A stretch of DNA of 64,000 nt from contig NZ_JACSQU010000001.1 of assembly GCF_014836405.1 (NCBI RefSeq), positions 744,001 through 808,000 of the forward strand, given 5' to 3'. The translations under genes were made by a program, and so were the position numbers. This DNA comes from Brevundimonas guildfordensis (GTDB lineage Bacteria > Pseudomonadota > Alphaproteobacteria > Caulobacterales > Caulobacteraceae). Below are positions 22,211 through 41,123 of this stretch, piece after piece. Below the pieces are notes generated by a model. It was not told where the DNA came from and did no database searches. It saw only the letters and a list, made by a program, of their open reading frames with translations. The first letter of the stretch is position 1. Each line of letters begins with the position of its first letter.

Positions 22211-22402
22211 CGCTTGGTTCCTCCTGAGAAGCACGTTCTGCGCCGCTCTCGGATCCGCATTCAAATACCGGCGGTTTGAAATTAGAGTTAACGCGCCAGA
22301 CGCCCACGGACGCAAGGCTGACAGAGCGGTTCAGGCGCCGTTCATTCGCCGCCCCCGAAGCTGGCTCATGACAGGGTTTCGTCGCTTCGCATGGAGTTTA
22401 GA

Positions 22403-22972
22403 ATGAACCGCCTAACCAAGGCCGCCGTCATCGCCCTGGCGCTGGCGACCACGGCCACCCCCATGATGGCGCAGGCCCAGGACCGGCATGATCGCCGTGA
22501 ATGGCGCCAGGACCGCCGCGACGATCGCCGCGACTGGCGTCAGGATCGAAGAGACGACCGTCGTGAATGGCGTCAGGACCGCCGCGACGATCGCCGTGAC
22601 TGGCGTCAGGATCGCCGCTCTGATCATCGCGACTGGCGTCAGGATCAGCGTCGCCAGGACCGCTGGAGCCGCGACAACCGAAACTGGTGGCGCGGCCGGC
22701 CCGAATTCCGCGACTATCGCGGCGCACGGAACGGCTACTGGTACGCACCGGGTCACGGCTACTACCGCGTCGAGCCGCGCTATTACGGCTATCGCTGGCG
22801 CACGGGCGGCTATCTGCCGCCGGCCTACCGCAGCTATTATGTCAGCGACCCCTACTTCTATGGTCTCCGTCCGGCCCCTCGCGGTTACCGCTACGTCCAC
22901 GCCGGCAATGACATTGTCATGATCGCTGTCGCGACCGGCCTGATCGCCAGCGTGTTGAGCAACGTCTACTAA
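22403..22972 (+). CDS. RcnB family periplasmic protein with Arg/Asp repeat
   Basis: 189-residue secreted protein. Signal peptide at 1-26, cleaved after 'MMAQAQ'. Residues about 27-75 are an 11-residue repeat of the type RREWRQDRRDD. Residues about 100-185 form an RcnB-like domain: aromatic 'YWYAPGHGYYRVEPRYYGY', 'GGYLPPAYRSYYVSD', 'LRPAPRGYRYVHAGND', then a hydrophobic C-terminal helix 'IVMIAVATGLIASVL'. RcnB proteins take part in nickel/cobalt homeostasis in enteric bacteria, but that role is not shown for this expanded alphaproteobacterial group. Start at ATG 22403, with GGAG upstream. It ends in a strong terminator and is followed by a paralogue. Confidence 0.85.
   Translation: MNRLTKAAVIALALATTATPMMAQAQDRHDRREWRQDRRDDRRDWRQDRRDDRREWRQDRRDDRRDWRQDRRSDHRDWRQDQRRQDRWSRDNRNWWRGRPEFRDYRGARNGYWYAPGHGYYRVEPRYYGYRWRTGGYLPPAYRSYYVSDPYFYGLRPAPRGYRYVHAGNDIVMIAVATGLIASVLSNVY
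22490..22650 (+). repeat. 33-bp tandem coding repeat in the first RcnB gene
   Basis: About four to five imperfect copies of a 33-bp unit encoding RR(E/D)WRQDRRDD. The unit is alternating basic and acidic residues with a Trp every 11 positions. The last copies degenerate to RRSDHRDW. It is a coding repeat, with no spacers. Confidence 0.85.
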
Positions 22973-23026: not shown

Positions 23027-23124
23027 CATGACAGCGCTCTATGATCGTCGTTCAGCCGCAGTTCATGACAAAGCGTCTACTTTCCACCCAAGCCGCCCGA
23101 TTTGGGCGTGCGAGGACTCTGACC

Positions 23125-24105
23125 ATGAAACGCTCCCTACTCATGTTCGCGGCAGTCTCCGCCTTCCTCGTGCCCGCCGCAGCACCTCTGTCGGTCCTGG
23201 CCCAGGAACGGCCTGAGCAGCGCGCTCAGACACGTGACGACAACCCTCGCCGATCCGAACGACGCGCTGCGCCCCCCCGTGAGCGCGGCGACATGGCGGT
23301 TAGTCCGCGCGATCGACAAGATTCCCCGCGCCAAGGCGGCCGATCCCGGCCCGAACAATCGCGACCGGAGAACCAGCGCCCGCAACGTCCCGACAGCGAA
23401 CGCCCCACGGGCCAACGTCCGGACCAACGGCCAAACCGCCCCGACCGCCCAGACGCGCAGCGTCCAGATCGGCCCGACCGCCCCAACCGGCCTGGCTGGA
23501 ATCAACCGAACCAGCCGGGGCGCCCCGATCGTCCAGACCGCCCGCAGCGGCCTGACAGACCAGACCGTCCTGACCGTCCCGGGGCAAATCGTCCCGACCG
23601 TCCGGATTGGAACCGCCCCAACCGGCCGAACCGCCCCGACTCTGACCGGCCAAACCGTCCGGATTGGAACCGACCGAACCGACCTGACGCCAACCGGCCG
23701 AACCGCCCCGATCGCCCCAACTGGAATCGCGACCGGAACTATCGCGAATTCCACAATCGCTGGAACCGCGACCAGTGGCGCCGTGACTGGGATCGTCGCC
23801 ATCGCGGCGACTGGTGGAGGAATGACAGCCGCTTCCGGGGCTGGAGCGGCGTCCGGCTAGGGTTCTATTTCGCGCCCGGATACGGCTACTACAGCGTGCC
23901 GCGCACCTATTGGAACCGACAGTACTCCATCGGCCAGTACCTGCCGGATGTCTTCTGGCGCTATCAGGTGAATGATTGGCGCACCTATGGTCTGGGCTAC
24001 CCCCCTCCGGGCACCCGGTGGGTCTATGTCGATAACGCGATCTACCTGATCGACGAATACGACGGCTACATCATTGAAGTCGTCCGCGACGCCTGGAGCT
24101 GGTAG
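23125..24105 (+). CDS. RcnB family periplasmic protein with long Arg-Pro-Asp repeat
   Basis: 326-residue secreted protein. Signal peptide about 1-28, 'MKRSLLMFAAVSAFLVPAAA' with cleavage after 'VLAQ'. Residues about 85-205 are low-complexity, built from RPDRP, RPNRP and DWNRPNRP units. Residues about 206-230 are Arg/Trp-rich (NRWNRDQWRRDW). The C-terminal RcnB domain (about 240-326) has 'YGYYSVPRTYWN', 'IGQYLPDVFWRYQVNDW', 'YPPPGTRWVYVDNAIYLID' and 'GYIIEVV'. It differs from its neighbour by having the classic RcnB C-terminus. Start at ATG 23125; earlier in-frame ATGs lack a signal peptide. Closed by a terminator at 24126. Confidence 0.87.
   Translation: MKRSLLMFAAVSAFLVPAAAPLSVLAQERPEQRAQTRDDNPRRSERRAAPPRERGDMAVSPRDRQDSPRQGGRSRPEQSRPENQRPQRPDSERPTGQRPDQRPNRPDRPDAQRPDRPDRPNRPGWNQPNQPGRPDRPDRPQRPDRPDRPDRPGANRPDRPDWNRPNRPNRPDSDRPNRPDWNRPNRPDANRPNRPDRPNWNRDRNYREFHNRWNRDQWRRDWDRRHRGDWWRNDSRFRGWSGVRLGFYFAPGYGYYSVPRTYWNRQYSIGQYLPDVFWRYQVNDWRTYGLGYPPPGTRWVYVDNAIYLIDEYDGYIIEVVRDAWSW
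23370..23715 (+). repeat. Degenerate coding repeat (Arg-Pro-Asp/Asn) in the second RcnB gene
   Basis: Short imperfect repeats of 9-15 bp encoding RPDRP, RPNRP and DWNRP units. They keep long open frames on both strands, including an antisense Ser-Gly-Arg-rich shadow frame. No spacers or palindromes, so this is not a CRISPR array. Confidence 0.8.
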
Positions 24106-25103: not shown

Positions 25104-25816
25104 ACGGCCGCCCATTCGGCATAGCCCGCCGCACGCAGCTCGCACGCCGGGCAGGTCCCGCAGCCATAACCCCATACGTGACGCTGTGTCCGGTCGCCCA
25201 GATAGCAGGTGTGGCTGAACTCGATGATAGCCTCGACCAGGTCGCGGCCGCCGATCCGATCCGCCATTTCCCAGGTCTGCGCTTTGGTCAGGAACATCAG
25301 AGGCGTCTCGACCGGAACCGACTTGTCCAGCCCCAGGGACAGGGCGCGGGCTGTGGCTTGAATGGTGTCGTTGCGACAGTCCGGATAGCCGGAATAGTCC
25401 GTTTCGCACATGCCTCCGATCAGCACCTCAAGCCCTCGGCGATCCGCCAGCGCCGCCGCGGCGACCAGGAAGATCAGATTGCGTCCCGGAACGAAGGTGT
25501 TGGGTAGGCCGCGCGCGTCTGCCTCAATGGCTCGCTCGGTCGTCATGGCCGTCTCGCCGATGGCGCCGAAACCGGTCAGATCGACCACGTGATCATCGCC
25601 TAGCCTGTCCGCCCAGTGCGGCAGGGCCTTGGTCACTTCGCGTCGCACCGCCTGGCGCGCCTCCATCTCGACCGCGTGGCGCTGGCCATAGTCGAAACCG
25701 ACGGTCTCCACTCGGTCGAACCGTTCCAGCGCCCAAGCCAGGCAGGTGGCGCTGTCCTGTCCTCCAGAGAAGAGGACCAGGGCGGAGGTTGTGGAGGGGG
25801 ACGCGATTTCGCTCAT
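25100..25816 (-). CDS. queC: 7-cyano-7-deazaguanine synthase QueC
   Basis: 238-residue QueC, the ATP-dependent enzyme turning 7-carboxy-7-deazaguanine into preQ0. It has the PP-loop '[16 protein letters not shown]' (about 16-30), '[12 protein letters not shown]', '[10 protein letters not shown]', and a C-terminal zinc site in 'SHTCYLGDR' and '[17 protein letters not shown]'. It is first in a two-gene unit with queE. I looked for a preQ1-type riboswitch in the 194-bp divergent region before it and did not recognise one. Confidence 0.97.
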
Positions 25817-26010
25817 GACAAACCTGCGGTCGGCCAGCGGCCGCGCGCATCAAGAAAGAGGTTCCAGTGACGGAGATGTTTAACGAGGGAACATAAACCA
25901 GACCCGGCCGCCTCGCAAAAGAAACCCGCGGCGGCGAAAAATGCGCGGCTTAACCGTTCCGCAAAGATTTGTCTGCGAATGTAAAATAGCCTCAGTAGGA
26001 GTCCGGCCGA

Positions 26011-27597
26011 ATGCCGACGATCGAAGTGCTGACTGACCGGGCCGAGCCCGTTCCCCCTTCTGCCAAAACAGGAGAGGTTTTCGCACGCTTCGAATGCGAA
26101 CCTGATACCCTTGCGATAGCGGTCGTGGATGGAGATCGCCCGGTCGGGTTGATCGAGCGCACAGACTTTCTGATGAAGCTTGCAGGTCCGCTGGGCGTGA
26201 GCCTGTACGGCGGGCGCGAGATCTCGCACCTGATGGACCCCGAGCCGGCGGTGGTCGAGGCAGGCGTCCGCATCGACGCCTTCGCCGACATCATCCTCAA
26301 AAGCGGGCCAGGCGCGCTGATGCGCGGCTTCATCGTCACCCGTAACGGCGTCTATCGCGGCGTCGGGACGGCCGTAGCGCTGCTTCGCGCCGTCAACGAA
26401 CAGCAGAGGCATGAAAACCAGCGCCTGGCCGAACAGGCCCGCGCCGCCGTTGACGCCGATCAAGCCATGCAAACGGCCGCCGTCGAGAAAAGCCGGTTCA
26501 TGGGCCTGCTTAATCGCGAGTTGAGCACCTCTATGAACGGCGTGCTCGCCGTCGCCGAACTCCTTTACCGACAGCCGCTGAACGAGGCGGCCAAGGCGCA
26601 CGCGCGCACCATCATGGAATCTGCCGAAGACCTGTTGGGCGACCTTCACGACGCCCTGGATCTGGCGCGGGCCGAGGCTGGCGAATTACAGTTGTCGCCT
26701 GCACCTACCCCCCTGCGCACGCTGATGGATCAGCTTCAGAGCCACTGGTCCCCGCGCGCCGCTCAAGACGGCGTGACACTGATGGTCGGCTATGAAGGCG
26801 ACACCGAACTGGCCGCCATCCTTGACGGCGGGCGGTTGAAACAGGTGTTCAATAACCTTATCGGGGCCGCGCTCGGCAATACGCGCCACGGCATGGTTGA
26901 AGCCAGCCTCAAGGCGCACGCCCGCGGCGATCAGATACTGATCGAAGCCCGCGTGCGCGACGACGGCACGGTCGACTCGGCAAGGCTTGCTGACGCATCG
27001 GAACAAGGCGGCGACCTGGGGCTCATGGTCAGCCGTCGGCTGGTCCAATACATGGGCGGCGCCCTGCGAGCGGAACACAACGCCGGTCGCGGCGCCACAT
27101 TCGCTTTCGAGATGGAGGCGCCTGTCGCGCTCATGGAGCAGGAAGCGCCGTGCAACGTGGCCGACCTTGAGCATCTGCACTTGCAGGCTCAGCCGCATAT
27201 TCTCATCGCCGACGATAACGCGACCAACCGTGTCGTGGCGCAAGCTCTGTGCGAAATGTTCGGCTGCACCTCGGAAACCGTCGAGGACGGCCAGGAAGCT
27301 GTGGAAGCCGCGCAGTCCCGCCGCTTTGACCTCATCCTGATGGATATCAAGATGCCTCGTCTGGACGGGGTCGGCGCCACACGCGCGATCCGTGCTCTGG
27401 GCGGGCCTGCTGGGCAAATCCCCATCATCGCCCTGACCGCCAACGCTGACCCAGATGACGCCAAAGCCTATCTTGCCGCAGGCATGGCCGCCGTCGTGGA
27501 AAAGCCCATCAAGCCTGAACGTCTGCGTCTGGCGATGAACACCGCCTTGGACCCCGCCGAACAGACCGCCGCACGCAAGGATCGCGGCGCCGCCTGA
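26011..27597 (+). CDS. CBS-like/degenerate kinase/receiver protein lacking the H-box histidine
   Basis: 528 residues, no membrane segment. Residues about 25-130 resemble a CBS-type sensory domain ('TLAIAVVDGDRPVGLIERTDFL', 'GREISHLMDPEP'). A helix at 130-165 leads to a HisKA-like dimerisation region, but its H-box reads 'FMGLLNRELSTSMNGVL', with Arg 169 where the phosphorylated His should be. The HATPase-like domain (about 235-370) has an N-box-like 'NNLIGAALGNT' but no DxGxG. The C-terminal receiver domain (about 395-512) looks complete: D401/D402, phospho-acceptor D445, T477 and K498. It is likely a pseudokinase that signals through, or is controlled by, its receiver. It diverges from queC. 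Confidence 0.82.
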   Translation: MPTIEVLTDRAEPVPPSAKTGEVFARFECEPDTLAIAVVDGDRPVGLIERTDFLMKLAGPLGVSLYGGREISHLMDPEPAVVEAGVRIDAFADIILKSGPGALMRGFIVTRNGVYRGVGTAVALLRAVNEQQRHENQRLAEQARAAVDADQAMQTAAVEKSRFMGLLNRELSTSMNGVLAVAELLYRQPLNEAAKAHARTIMESAEDLLGDLHDALDLARAEAGELQLSPAPTPLRTLMDQLQSHWSPRAAQDGVTLMVGYEGDTELAAILDGGRLKQVFNNLIGAALGNTRHGMVEASLKAHARGDQILIEARVRDDGTVDSARLADASEQGGDLGLMVSRRLVQYMGGALRAEHNAGRGATFAFEMEAPVALMEQEAPCNVADLEHLHLQAQPHILIADDNATNRVVAQALCEMFGCTSETVEDGQEAVEAAQSRRFDLILMDIKMPRLDGVGATRAIRALGGPAGQIPIIALTANADPDDAKAYLAAGMAAVVEKPIKPERLRLAMNTALDPAEQTAARKDRGAA

Positions 27598-40700: not shown

Positions 40701-41123
40701 ATGATCCGCAAGGCCCGCAACCGTGACGCCGTGCTGGAAGGCCGACGAATCCTGATCGTCGAGGATGACGTGCGCAACGTCTACTCCCTGACCAACGTGC
40801 TCGAGCCGCGCGGTGCTGTCATTGAGATCGCCCGCAACGGCAAGGAAGCCCTCGACGCCCTGGAACGTTCGTCAAGCGACCCGGCCAAGGCGGTCGACCT
40901 GGTGCTGATGGACGTGATGATGCCGGTTATGGACGGTCTGGCGGCGACGCGCGAAATCAGGAAAGATGCGCGCTGGAAGTCCCTGCCCGTGGTGATGCTG
41001 ACCGCAAAGGCCATGCCGGACGACCAGGAGCGGTGCATGGCGGCCGGGGCCAATGATTACATGGCCAAGCCGCTGGACGTGGACAAGCTGCTATCGCTTG
41101 TGCGCGTCTGGATGCCCCGCTGA
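37701..41123 (+). CDS. Membrane hybrid histidine kinase: CHASE3-GAF-coiled coil-HisKA-HATPase-REC-REC-REC
   Basis: 1140 residues. TM helices at about 14-36 and 188-211 bracket a CHASE3-type periplasmic domain ('VLSAAQEAETGQRGFLLTG'). A GAF domain lies at about 225-370. Residues 380-470 are a Glu/Gln-rich coiled coil. The kinase core follows: H482 in 'NMSHELRTPLN', N-box 'LSNAFKFT', and 'DTGIGI' and 'GTGLGLSI' ATP-lid motifs. Three complete receiver domains have acceptors at D797, D919 and D1071. First gene of a four-gene operon with CheR, CheB and a receiver-kinase. The large number of receivers indicates a multi-input phosphorelay. Confidence 0.95.
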   Translation: MKSPSRPSAGSKMESLAAVGLALVLAFFLATGIIAWRNVEVLRANNQQIIHTHEVILAVEDVLSAAQEAETGQRGFLLTGDVKYLQPYEAATSDLNRRLGDLADLTRDNPNQQAHMSELRRLLAAKLTELDASLQARRTEGMQAALARIGTDEGRRVMDAVRARIAQMRQEEQRVREQRIAEMNASYQTALVSGVLSGLLGAALTFVVFTLIRRTARARSRQQWLHEGQVGLASAMMGDQSLEQLGDSILDYFARYAGVQAAALFKGEGGFYRRIAALGVPADAAIPERFGVREGLLGQVAADGKTLTVSDVPDGYLTIGSALGRDKPRHLVISSAQADGAVNAVLELGFLHAPDERLMTLLDEAGRAIGMALRSARYRAQLQNMLEETQRQSEELQVQSEELRVSNEELEEQGRALKESQVRLEQQQAELEQTNTQLEEQAQLLEAQRDDLERGSAALTLKARELEQASQYKSDFLANMSHELRTPLNSLLILSKLLADNPEGSLTDDQVNYARTIQSSGNDLLALINDILDLSKIEAGHIQARPEAVSMQRLAGDIRQTFQPIADDRNLPFEIDVEGGLELMETDRQRLEQILKNLLSNAFKFTESGLVKLTISTLPDDEIAFAVSDTGIGISPEQQKGVFAAFQQADGTISRKYGGTGLGLSISRELARLLGGRIELESRVGEGSIFTLVLPLAYEAERVASREPAAAPQRLAPAVAPHPAPLEPRPLAASIEDDRDNLAGNRRLLLVVEDDGRFAAIVRDLSRELGFQCIVAGTAEEALKLAKRHRPSAVVLDIGLPDQSGLTVLDELKRDDDTRHIPIHVVSGEDHSQTALSLGAIGYLVKPVKREDLADVLRALEEKLTRTVRRVLIVEDDLVQRDAVSRLLASGDVETVGVGTAAECLEQLKNQTFDCMVLDLTLPDASGFSLLETLSRDTNHSFPPVIVYTGRDLSPDHEQQLRRYSSSIIIKGAKSPERLLDEVSLFLHQVVSELPPEQQKMIRKARNRDAVLEGRRILIVEDDVRNVYSLTNVLEPRGAVIEIARNGKEALDALERSSSDPAKAVDLVLMDVMMPVMDGLAATREIRKDARWKSLPVVMLTAKAMPDDQERCMAAGANDYMAKPLDVDKLLSLVRVWMPR

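Follow-up and report, generated by a model that had tools for sequence, protein, structure and literature searches.

What role is left to a hybrid histidine kinase that lacks the phospho-acceptor histidine and carries an intact receiver domain, and from where would such a receiver obtain its phosphate? The question is raised by a gene in the stretch of DNA analysed here (hereafter referred to as the window), which comprises 64,000 nucleotides of the Brevundimonas guildfordensis genome (Alphaproteobacteria, Caulobacteraceae). The gene (26011..27597, plus strand) is an intact open reading frame for a pseudo-hybrid histidine kinase of 528 amino acids (P0001), flanked by a divergent queC upstream and a convergent gene for a metallo-beta-lactamase-fold protein downstream.

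The N-terminal part of the window protein (residues ~1-130; 26011..26400) is a CBS pair (Bateman module), as judged from Pfam CBS, AF2, Foldseek and VIA-align. It is followed by a modelled long helix (26401..26484) continuing into alpha1 of the DHp (HisKA) helices (residues ~159-225; 26485..26685), by the HATPase (CA) domain (residues ~226-372; 26686..27126) and by the receiver domain (residues ~394-513; 27190..27549), all on the plus strand. Pfam matches were obtained for CBS at residues 7-58 (25.3 bits against a cut-off of 24), HATPase_c at residues 273-369 (37.2 bits against 26.4) and Response_reg at residues 397-508 (90.6 bits); the HisKA match at residues 160-224 (23.1 bits) falls under its cut-off of 26.9. 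In the AF2 model of the window protein (60 sequences; mean pLDDT 88.1, pTM 0.55), a single unbroken helix, residues 121-187, links the CBS pair to DHp alpha1.

A CBS-type N-terminus, of a kind that often senses adenine nucleotides, had been proposed in an earlier reading of the DNA made from the letters alone (the sequence-only reading). The CBS-pair fold is borne out: the N-terminal part modelled separately gives a CBS pair with a mean pLDDT of 92.3, and the nearest solved CBS matches are CBSX2 (Foldseek) and AcuB (VIA-align Z 15.6, rmsd 2.2, 125 residues). The usual nucleotide motif (T/S)xxD, however, is not conserved. The signature of nucleotide-binding CBS domains is G-h-h-(T/S)-x-x-D; the window protein reads G46-L-I-E49-R-T-D52, and in the second repeat T120 is present and the Asp is missing. 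Among the 109 rows scored as CBS-bearing, two of which (L077 and L082) have an upstream frame that is not CBS-like, E49 occurs in 74 and D52 in 21. Adenine-nucleotide sensing by the CBS pair is possible but not supported by these residues. The CBS part is missing in 17 of 126 relatives (19 with L077 and L082), all 17 of which also lack the histidine, and the sensor is thus not essential to the family.

Several observations concern the surrounding DNA. A conserved block, CTTAAC..TT..G.AAA (25949..25965, plus strand), was found ~62 bp 5' of the start codon in the alignment of 20 Brevundimonas-type upstream regions; CTTAAC is present at 20/20 loci, of both active and pseudo-kinase orthologues, and the remainder of the block shows deviations. 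It is a possible shared promoter element. At the start of queC (~25811-25850), the 20 aligned Brevundimonas-type loci show strong conservation of a block, CATGAC..ACCTGCGGTCGGCC..GGCCGCGCGCAT; read on the minus strand, it contains an inverted repeat and an out-of-frame ATG upstream of queC, and may represent a leader peptide or a hairpin. A search of the whole window with Rfam at the gathering threshold returned four tRNAs only, with no RNA element before the kinase gene or at the queC-start block. Two open reading frames next to each other, 22391-22972 and 23041-24105, contain long repeats (RRDWRQDRRDD and RPDRPNRPD), resemble each other in their Tyr/Gly-rich ends, and judged by eye would encode secreted or envelope proteins. 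A second receiver domain, of unusual sequence (EDDVRNVYSL), lies at 40746-41090 (G000:C2:784746-785090) within an open frame of 1141 amino acids that has a kinase-like part.

Catalytic residues and selection in the window protein

The position of the phospho-acceptor histidine is occupied by Arg169 (codon CGC; 26515..26517, plus strand), as the sequence-only reading had noted, and the H-box is LNRELSTSMNGV, as compared with SHELRTPMNGV in most of the aligned Brevundimonas orthologues. No histidine occurs in DHp alpha1 columns 160-187 of the window protein; Glu170 and Thr173 are present. In the HATPase domain, the N-box Asn286 is replaced by Ala, the second Gly of DxGxG is gone and the ATP lid is shorter than the lids of the intact orthologues. 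The earlier description of DxGxG as absent was slightly overstated, as D317 and G319 remain (DDGTV). The receiver, which had been read as intact, carries D401, D402, D445, T476 and K498; D445 and K498 had been placed correctly, and the threonine assigned to position 477 is T476, residue 477 being Ala. When set against an active hybrid kinase (HisKA-HATPase_c-REC), the window protein is without the histidine and a complete nucleotide pocket and has the receiver residues. The phospho-acceptor Asp encoded by codon 445 (27343..27345, plus strand), together with D401, T476 and K498, is present in 136/136 rows covering the family and its paralogue B, L154 having been left out beforehand.

Conservation of Arg169 in orthologues had been suggested as a check. 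The same H-box with Arg occurs throughout the nearest clade, in 8/8 proteins (L001, L002, L131, L132, L133, L003, L032 and L134). As these come from separate genomes, a sequencing or assembly error as the source of Arg169 was ruled out. The DHp and receiver of the nearest-clade members differ from those of the window protein by ~0.7-1.2 silent changes per site, and because Arg169 was kept in 8/8 despite this divergence, its retention is not due to chance. Over-representation of Arg was set aside as a sign of selection, His to Arg presumably requiring a single CAC/CAT to CGC/CGT transition.

Comparison of the window gene with seven near orthologues by the Nei-Gojobori method gave dN/dS values of 0.00-0.06 for the DHp, 0.03-0.06 for the receiver, 0.03-0.17 for the CBS part and 0.06-0.19 for the HATPase, the short linker having values as high as 0.41; these ratios are rough, as silent sites are near saturation in some pairs. 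Judged from these ratios, the His-less DHp of the window clade is kept by strong purifying selection, which along with the conserved Arg upholds the earlier view of the protein as a pseudo-kinase.

The accumulation of damage in the kinase half, and a receiver cut short in genome G176 (L154), could be taken to indicate a decaying pseudogene. This explanation appears extremely improbable in view of the intact open frame, the dN/dS below 0.2 for all four domains, with only the linker reaching 0.41, and the uniform retention of the receiver site residues. In L154 itself, the receiver match stops at residue 431, which may reflect either a real loss or a sequencing frameshift.

Orthologues, paralogues and repeated loss of the histidine

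Family searches returned matches in 56 of 61 genomes at 1e-40 (paralogues and other hybrid kinases included) and in 231 of 299 Caulobacteraceae genomes at 1e-60 (paralogues included). Many Brevundimonas orthologues (~60-67% identity) have SHELRTPMNGV, DDGPGV and GAGLGLS motifs and are apparently competent kinases. The next relatives of the window clade represent intermediate stages: L005 and L006 carry Arg and L004 and L135 carry Gln at the histidine position, with the other boxes normal; L136 has the histidine and a shortened lid. Two Brevundimonas-type orthologues, L045 and L032, come from assemblies whose records bear the names Pseudanabaena biceps and Bordetella sp., respectively, and which are probably contaminated.

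Of the 126 family members, 65 have the histidine at column 169 and 61 are His-minus; the frequency is biased by sampling of best hits and of hand-picked divergent members, and the assignment of the column is less certain for the most divergent of them. Histidine, N-box Asn and DxGxG are all present in 53/126. Twelve members keep the histidine with other damage, seven of them without both N-box Asn and DxGxG; the histidine alone is gone, among these three marks, in 7/126, and all three are gone in 37/126. Judged from these combinations, the damage to the kinase arose in both orders.

Two phylogenetic trees, among them one of 136 rows, were computed with ten rows left out besides the copy of the query, namely L129 (unrelated), L053, L088, L090, L114 and L154 (partial or frameshifted) and L116-L119 (outgroup). 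The 126-member counts further omit L072 and L091, which are long-branched and both without the histidine, and L172/L173, two rows for a single paralogue-B place. Where two proteins were identical (nine pairs), only one was counted. The tree of the 126 family members and five paralogues, inferred with the H-box and lid columns excluded, requires a minimum of 11 changes of the histidine state, or 10 with weak forks collapsed; if loss is irreversible, the numbers are 19 and 15 losses, respectively. The tree inferred without the whole kinase part (136 rows including paralogue B) requires 10 changes, and the less divergent Brevundimonas-type part of the collapsed tree still requires five losses if irreversible; these trees hold long branches, and their deep placements are unsure. 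Some Caulobacter-type members, such as L059, L060, L065, L066 and L176, have a histidine at the column and have lost the HATPase motifs, and part of the counted changes therefore fall among already dead proteins.

The sequence-only reading had held that a normal histidine in orthologues would imply a local mutation. In the same genus, counted in 35 of the 37 own and same-genus genomes with an orthologue, the family (A) retains the histidine in 26/35 and has lost it in 9/35, with 51-100% identity to the window protein. Orthologues with a normal histidine thus exist; a local mutation is nevertheless not borne out, as the loss is clade-wide and, on the tree counts, evolved repeatedly. The 26 same-genus orthologues make it probable that the ancestor of the family was an active kinase, and the intact H-box HEIRTPL in 4/4 outgroup proteins (L116-L119, from other families of the order, ~30% identical nearly end to end) also favours such an ancestor.

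Two other hybrid kinases served as same-genus controls. Paralogue B (G000:C3:262929-264512) lost the histidine at 0/42 loci (60-100% identical; matches belonging to family A omitted) and hybrid kinase C (G000:C2:522441-524294) at 0/58 loci (63-100% identical; omitting three matches, namely two further paralogues and one fragment without the H-box). With 15 paralogue-B rows from other genera included, the histidine is present in 45/45, L172/L173 being one place counted twice. Genome G021 has two paralogue-B copies on different contigs (L126 and L127).

Phosphorylation of the pseudo-kinase in trans by paralogue B was considered and rejected as a general explanation, since some genomes with a His-less A have no B at the thresholds used. 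These include G031 (of the window's clade), G024, G140 and G254, with no match at 1e-120 and one each at 1e-60, and also G162, G225 and G251, with one match each at 1e-60.

The pair E170 and T173 in the window protein suggests a further possibility. An E-x-x-T motif of the DHp is linked to phosphatase activity, and the protein could be a phosphatase or phosphate-sink enzyme that dephosphorylates receivers, whether its own or a different one, thereby draining a shared relay. The E..T pair occurs in 17/61 His-minus members; as it is absent in 44/61, this activity cannot be the function common to them, and the nucleotide pocket of the window protein is damaged. This alternative is considered improbable, although less so than decay of the gene.

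Conservation of the receiver and its possible partners

Among the His-minus members, mean pairwise identity is 0.73 for the receiver, 0.44 for the HATPase, 0.40 for the CBS part and 0.37 for the DHp; in paralogue B, it is 0.77 for the DHp and 0.65 for the receiver. The His-minus HATPase region is not drifting freely, as indicated by its conserved non-catalytic residues (W246 in 60/61; G263, E297, R316 and G359 in 61/61).

According to PMC9981736, the receiver of a hybrid kinase contacts the DHp through its alpha1 surface, which is normally variable and changes in step with the DHp. In the present family, alpha1 residues T405, N406, V409 and L413 are present in 65/65 His-plus and 61/61 His-minus members. 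When pairs with 30-40% HATPase identity are compared, alpha1 and DHp identities are 0.81 and 0.28 for His-minus pairs and 0.86 and 0.34 for His-plus pairs of the family, as against 0.48 and 0.71 for pairs of paralogue B. As alpha1 is frozen in the His-plus members too, this is a family property and not a consequence of histidine loss. The evolution of the receiver, on these comparisons, does not track that of its own DHp, which would be most simply explained by a partner that is another, separate conserved protein. The receiver may also be conserved through binding a partner that has no phospho-histidine.

We consider about evenly poised the proposal that the window protein is a former hybrid kinase now serving as a receiver module on a CBS pair, charged in trans by an outside histidine protein. 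Conservation is highest in the receiver, a part that is missing from DivL, the pseudokinase to which the sequence-only reading had compared the protein, and this points to phosphotransfer in trans. The receiver would exchange phosphate with an outside conserved histidine protein, either a histidine phosphotransfer protein or the DHp of another kinase; the protein could thereby act as a branch point or as a phosphate store or sink in a shared phosphorelay, and the pseudo-kinase dimer, with the CBS pair where present, might set the availability of the receiver. A broader proposal for the whole orthologous group is put forward with slightly less than even confidence: the kinase would be a dispensable passenger, inactivated independently some ten times or more, with the sensor dropped in some lineages, and the receiver with its frozen partner-binding helix would persist, serving a phosphotransfer hub outside the protein as its client or buffer.

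Alternatively, the pseudo-kinase could be an allosteric regulator in the manner of DivL or RetS, which alters the activity of another hybrid kinase by binding its DHp, as a heterodimer or through docking, with the receiver in a purely modulating role. Such a role agrees with how strongly the His-less DHp of the window clade is held by purifying selection and with the RetS and DivL kinase parts being among the structural and sequence matches; a heterodimer with HmrA is also one of the options proposed in PMC11481889. The structural matches, however, are generic to the HisKA/HATPase fold, and in distant His-minus members the identity is 0.28-0.34 for the DHp and 0.68-0.73 for the receiver, the opposite of what a DHp-centred function predicts. 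An allosteric role is therefore regarded as rather unlikely, though less so than a phosphatase.

Under the preferred reading of charging in trans, a donor would be required. A search for partners by way of a shared alpha1 gave 30 receiver matches in the window's genome, among which only paralogue B is close, and named no donor. An HmrX-like protein of 158 amino acids (G000:C2:129442-129915) is encoded next to an NAD kinase gene in the same genome; its Pfam Hpt match of 22.3 is under the cut-off of 24.6, and its His80 (H81 in HmrX) and length suggest orthology with HmrX. Co-occurrence as a means of singling it out was uninformative, the protein being present in 277/299 Caulobacteraceae genomes, including genera without a family match at 1e-60 among those examined (e.g. 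g24). Its naming as a candidate donor is guesswork, based on the HmrX phenotype in Caulobacter crescentus and on wide conservation.

Caulobacter crescentus CC_3162 and other known systems

For one species, C. crescentus, an orthologue without the histidine has already been published. PMC11481889 describes CCNA_03265 (CC_3162) as lacking the conserved histidine and retaining the receiver Asp, with H151 a few residues downstream named as a possible substitute; it reports two hyperadhesive transposon insertions in the gene and states, citing its reference 58, that the gene affects motility through semisolid agar. The options given there for CCNA_03265 are phosphorylation by HmrB/HmrX or heterodimer formation with HmrA; its tie to the HmrABCX phosphorelay in that paper is limited to the hyperadhesive mutant screen from which both emerged. 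The neighbouring CC_3161 is a TonB-dependent receptor (PMC3751524, PMC13001252). The gene lies directly beside queC in the window, as well as in L007 and L158 (QueC confirmed by Pfam; adjacency in the latter two by reading), one small gene separates the two in L161 and L164, and the Pfam-confirmed order in the Caulobacter-type L057 and L071 is queC, TonB receptor, gene. A histidine exactly at 151 occurs in 7/15 Caulobacter-type members (L176 and L178-L183), five residues past the family histidine column. Because of this synteny and the histidine at 151, we infer that CC_3162 is the orthologue of the window gene. If so, the published mutants suggest that in C. crescentus the protein would bear on the switch between motile and sessile life.

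The window protein resembles CC_3162 in the missing phospho-acceptor histidine, the retained receiver Asp and the queC neighbourhood. The Caulobacter-type members are ~40-44% identical to it, their kinase part is more degenerate, and the histidine losses of the two groups fall at separate places on the tree. H151 also bears on the possibility that these proteins are still kinases by way of another or displaced histidine. Beyond its naming as a substitute in PMC11481889 and its occurrence in the seven Caulobacter-type members, the His151 column (S174 in the window protein) holds a histidine in only 20/126 members, and the HATPase motifs of these Caulobacter-type members are degenerate too. In the window protein, alpha1 columns 160-187 offer no substitute, and the N-box and DxGxG are damaged; continued kinase activity is thus very unlikely.

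DivL has a HisKA/HATPase fold without the histidine and belongs to the same bacterial family, and its solved kinase part (4q20) matches the window protein. DivL has Tyr at the histidine position, PAS domains and no receiver; the window protein differs in having Arg169, a CBS pair and a receiver. The kinase part of RetS is a top structural match of the window protein. RetS is membrane-anchored, with two receivers and a sensor that differs from the CBS pair. Its action on GacS in Pseudomonas, as outlined in PMC4866733, is an example of one hybrid kinase acting on another. By sequence and fold together, the best solved relative is ShkA (6qrj), followed by the GacS and RetS kinase parts. ShkA of C. 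crescentus shares with the window protein the order of DHp, HATPase and receiver. ShkA is active as a kinase and carries a pseudo-receiver that separates its HATPase from its receiver, and an extra stretch of ShkA is visible in its alignment to the window protein. Most hybrid-kinase receivers of C. crescentus resemble that of ShkA (PMC9981736).

No account of recurrent histidine loss across the family, combined with a frozen receiver interface and with controls that stay intact, turned up among open-licence PMC papers, which does not imply that the recurrence is unpublished. Pseudo-histidine kinases such as DivL have mostly been studied singly. In the present case, active-looking, half-damaged and fully degenerate kinases occur side by side within one family and one genus, and an intact paralogue serves as control; the orthologue of C. 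crescentus, a laboratory strain, already has an adhesion phenotype (PMC11481889). The family thus makes the role of a hybrid kinase after the loss of its kinase function, and the source of phosphate for its receiver, directly testable. If the proposal is true, the family would represent a natural replicated experiment in the conversion of a kinase into a receiver-centred regulator.
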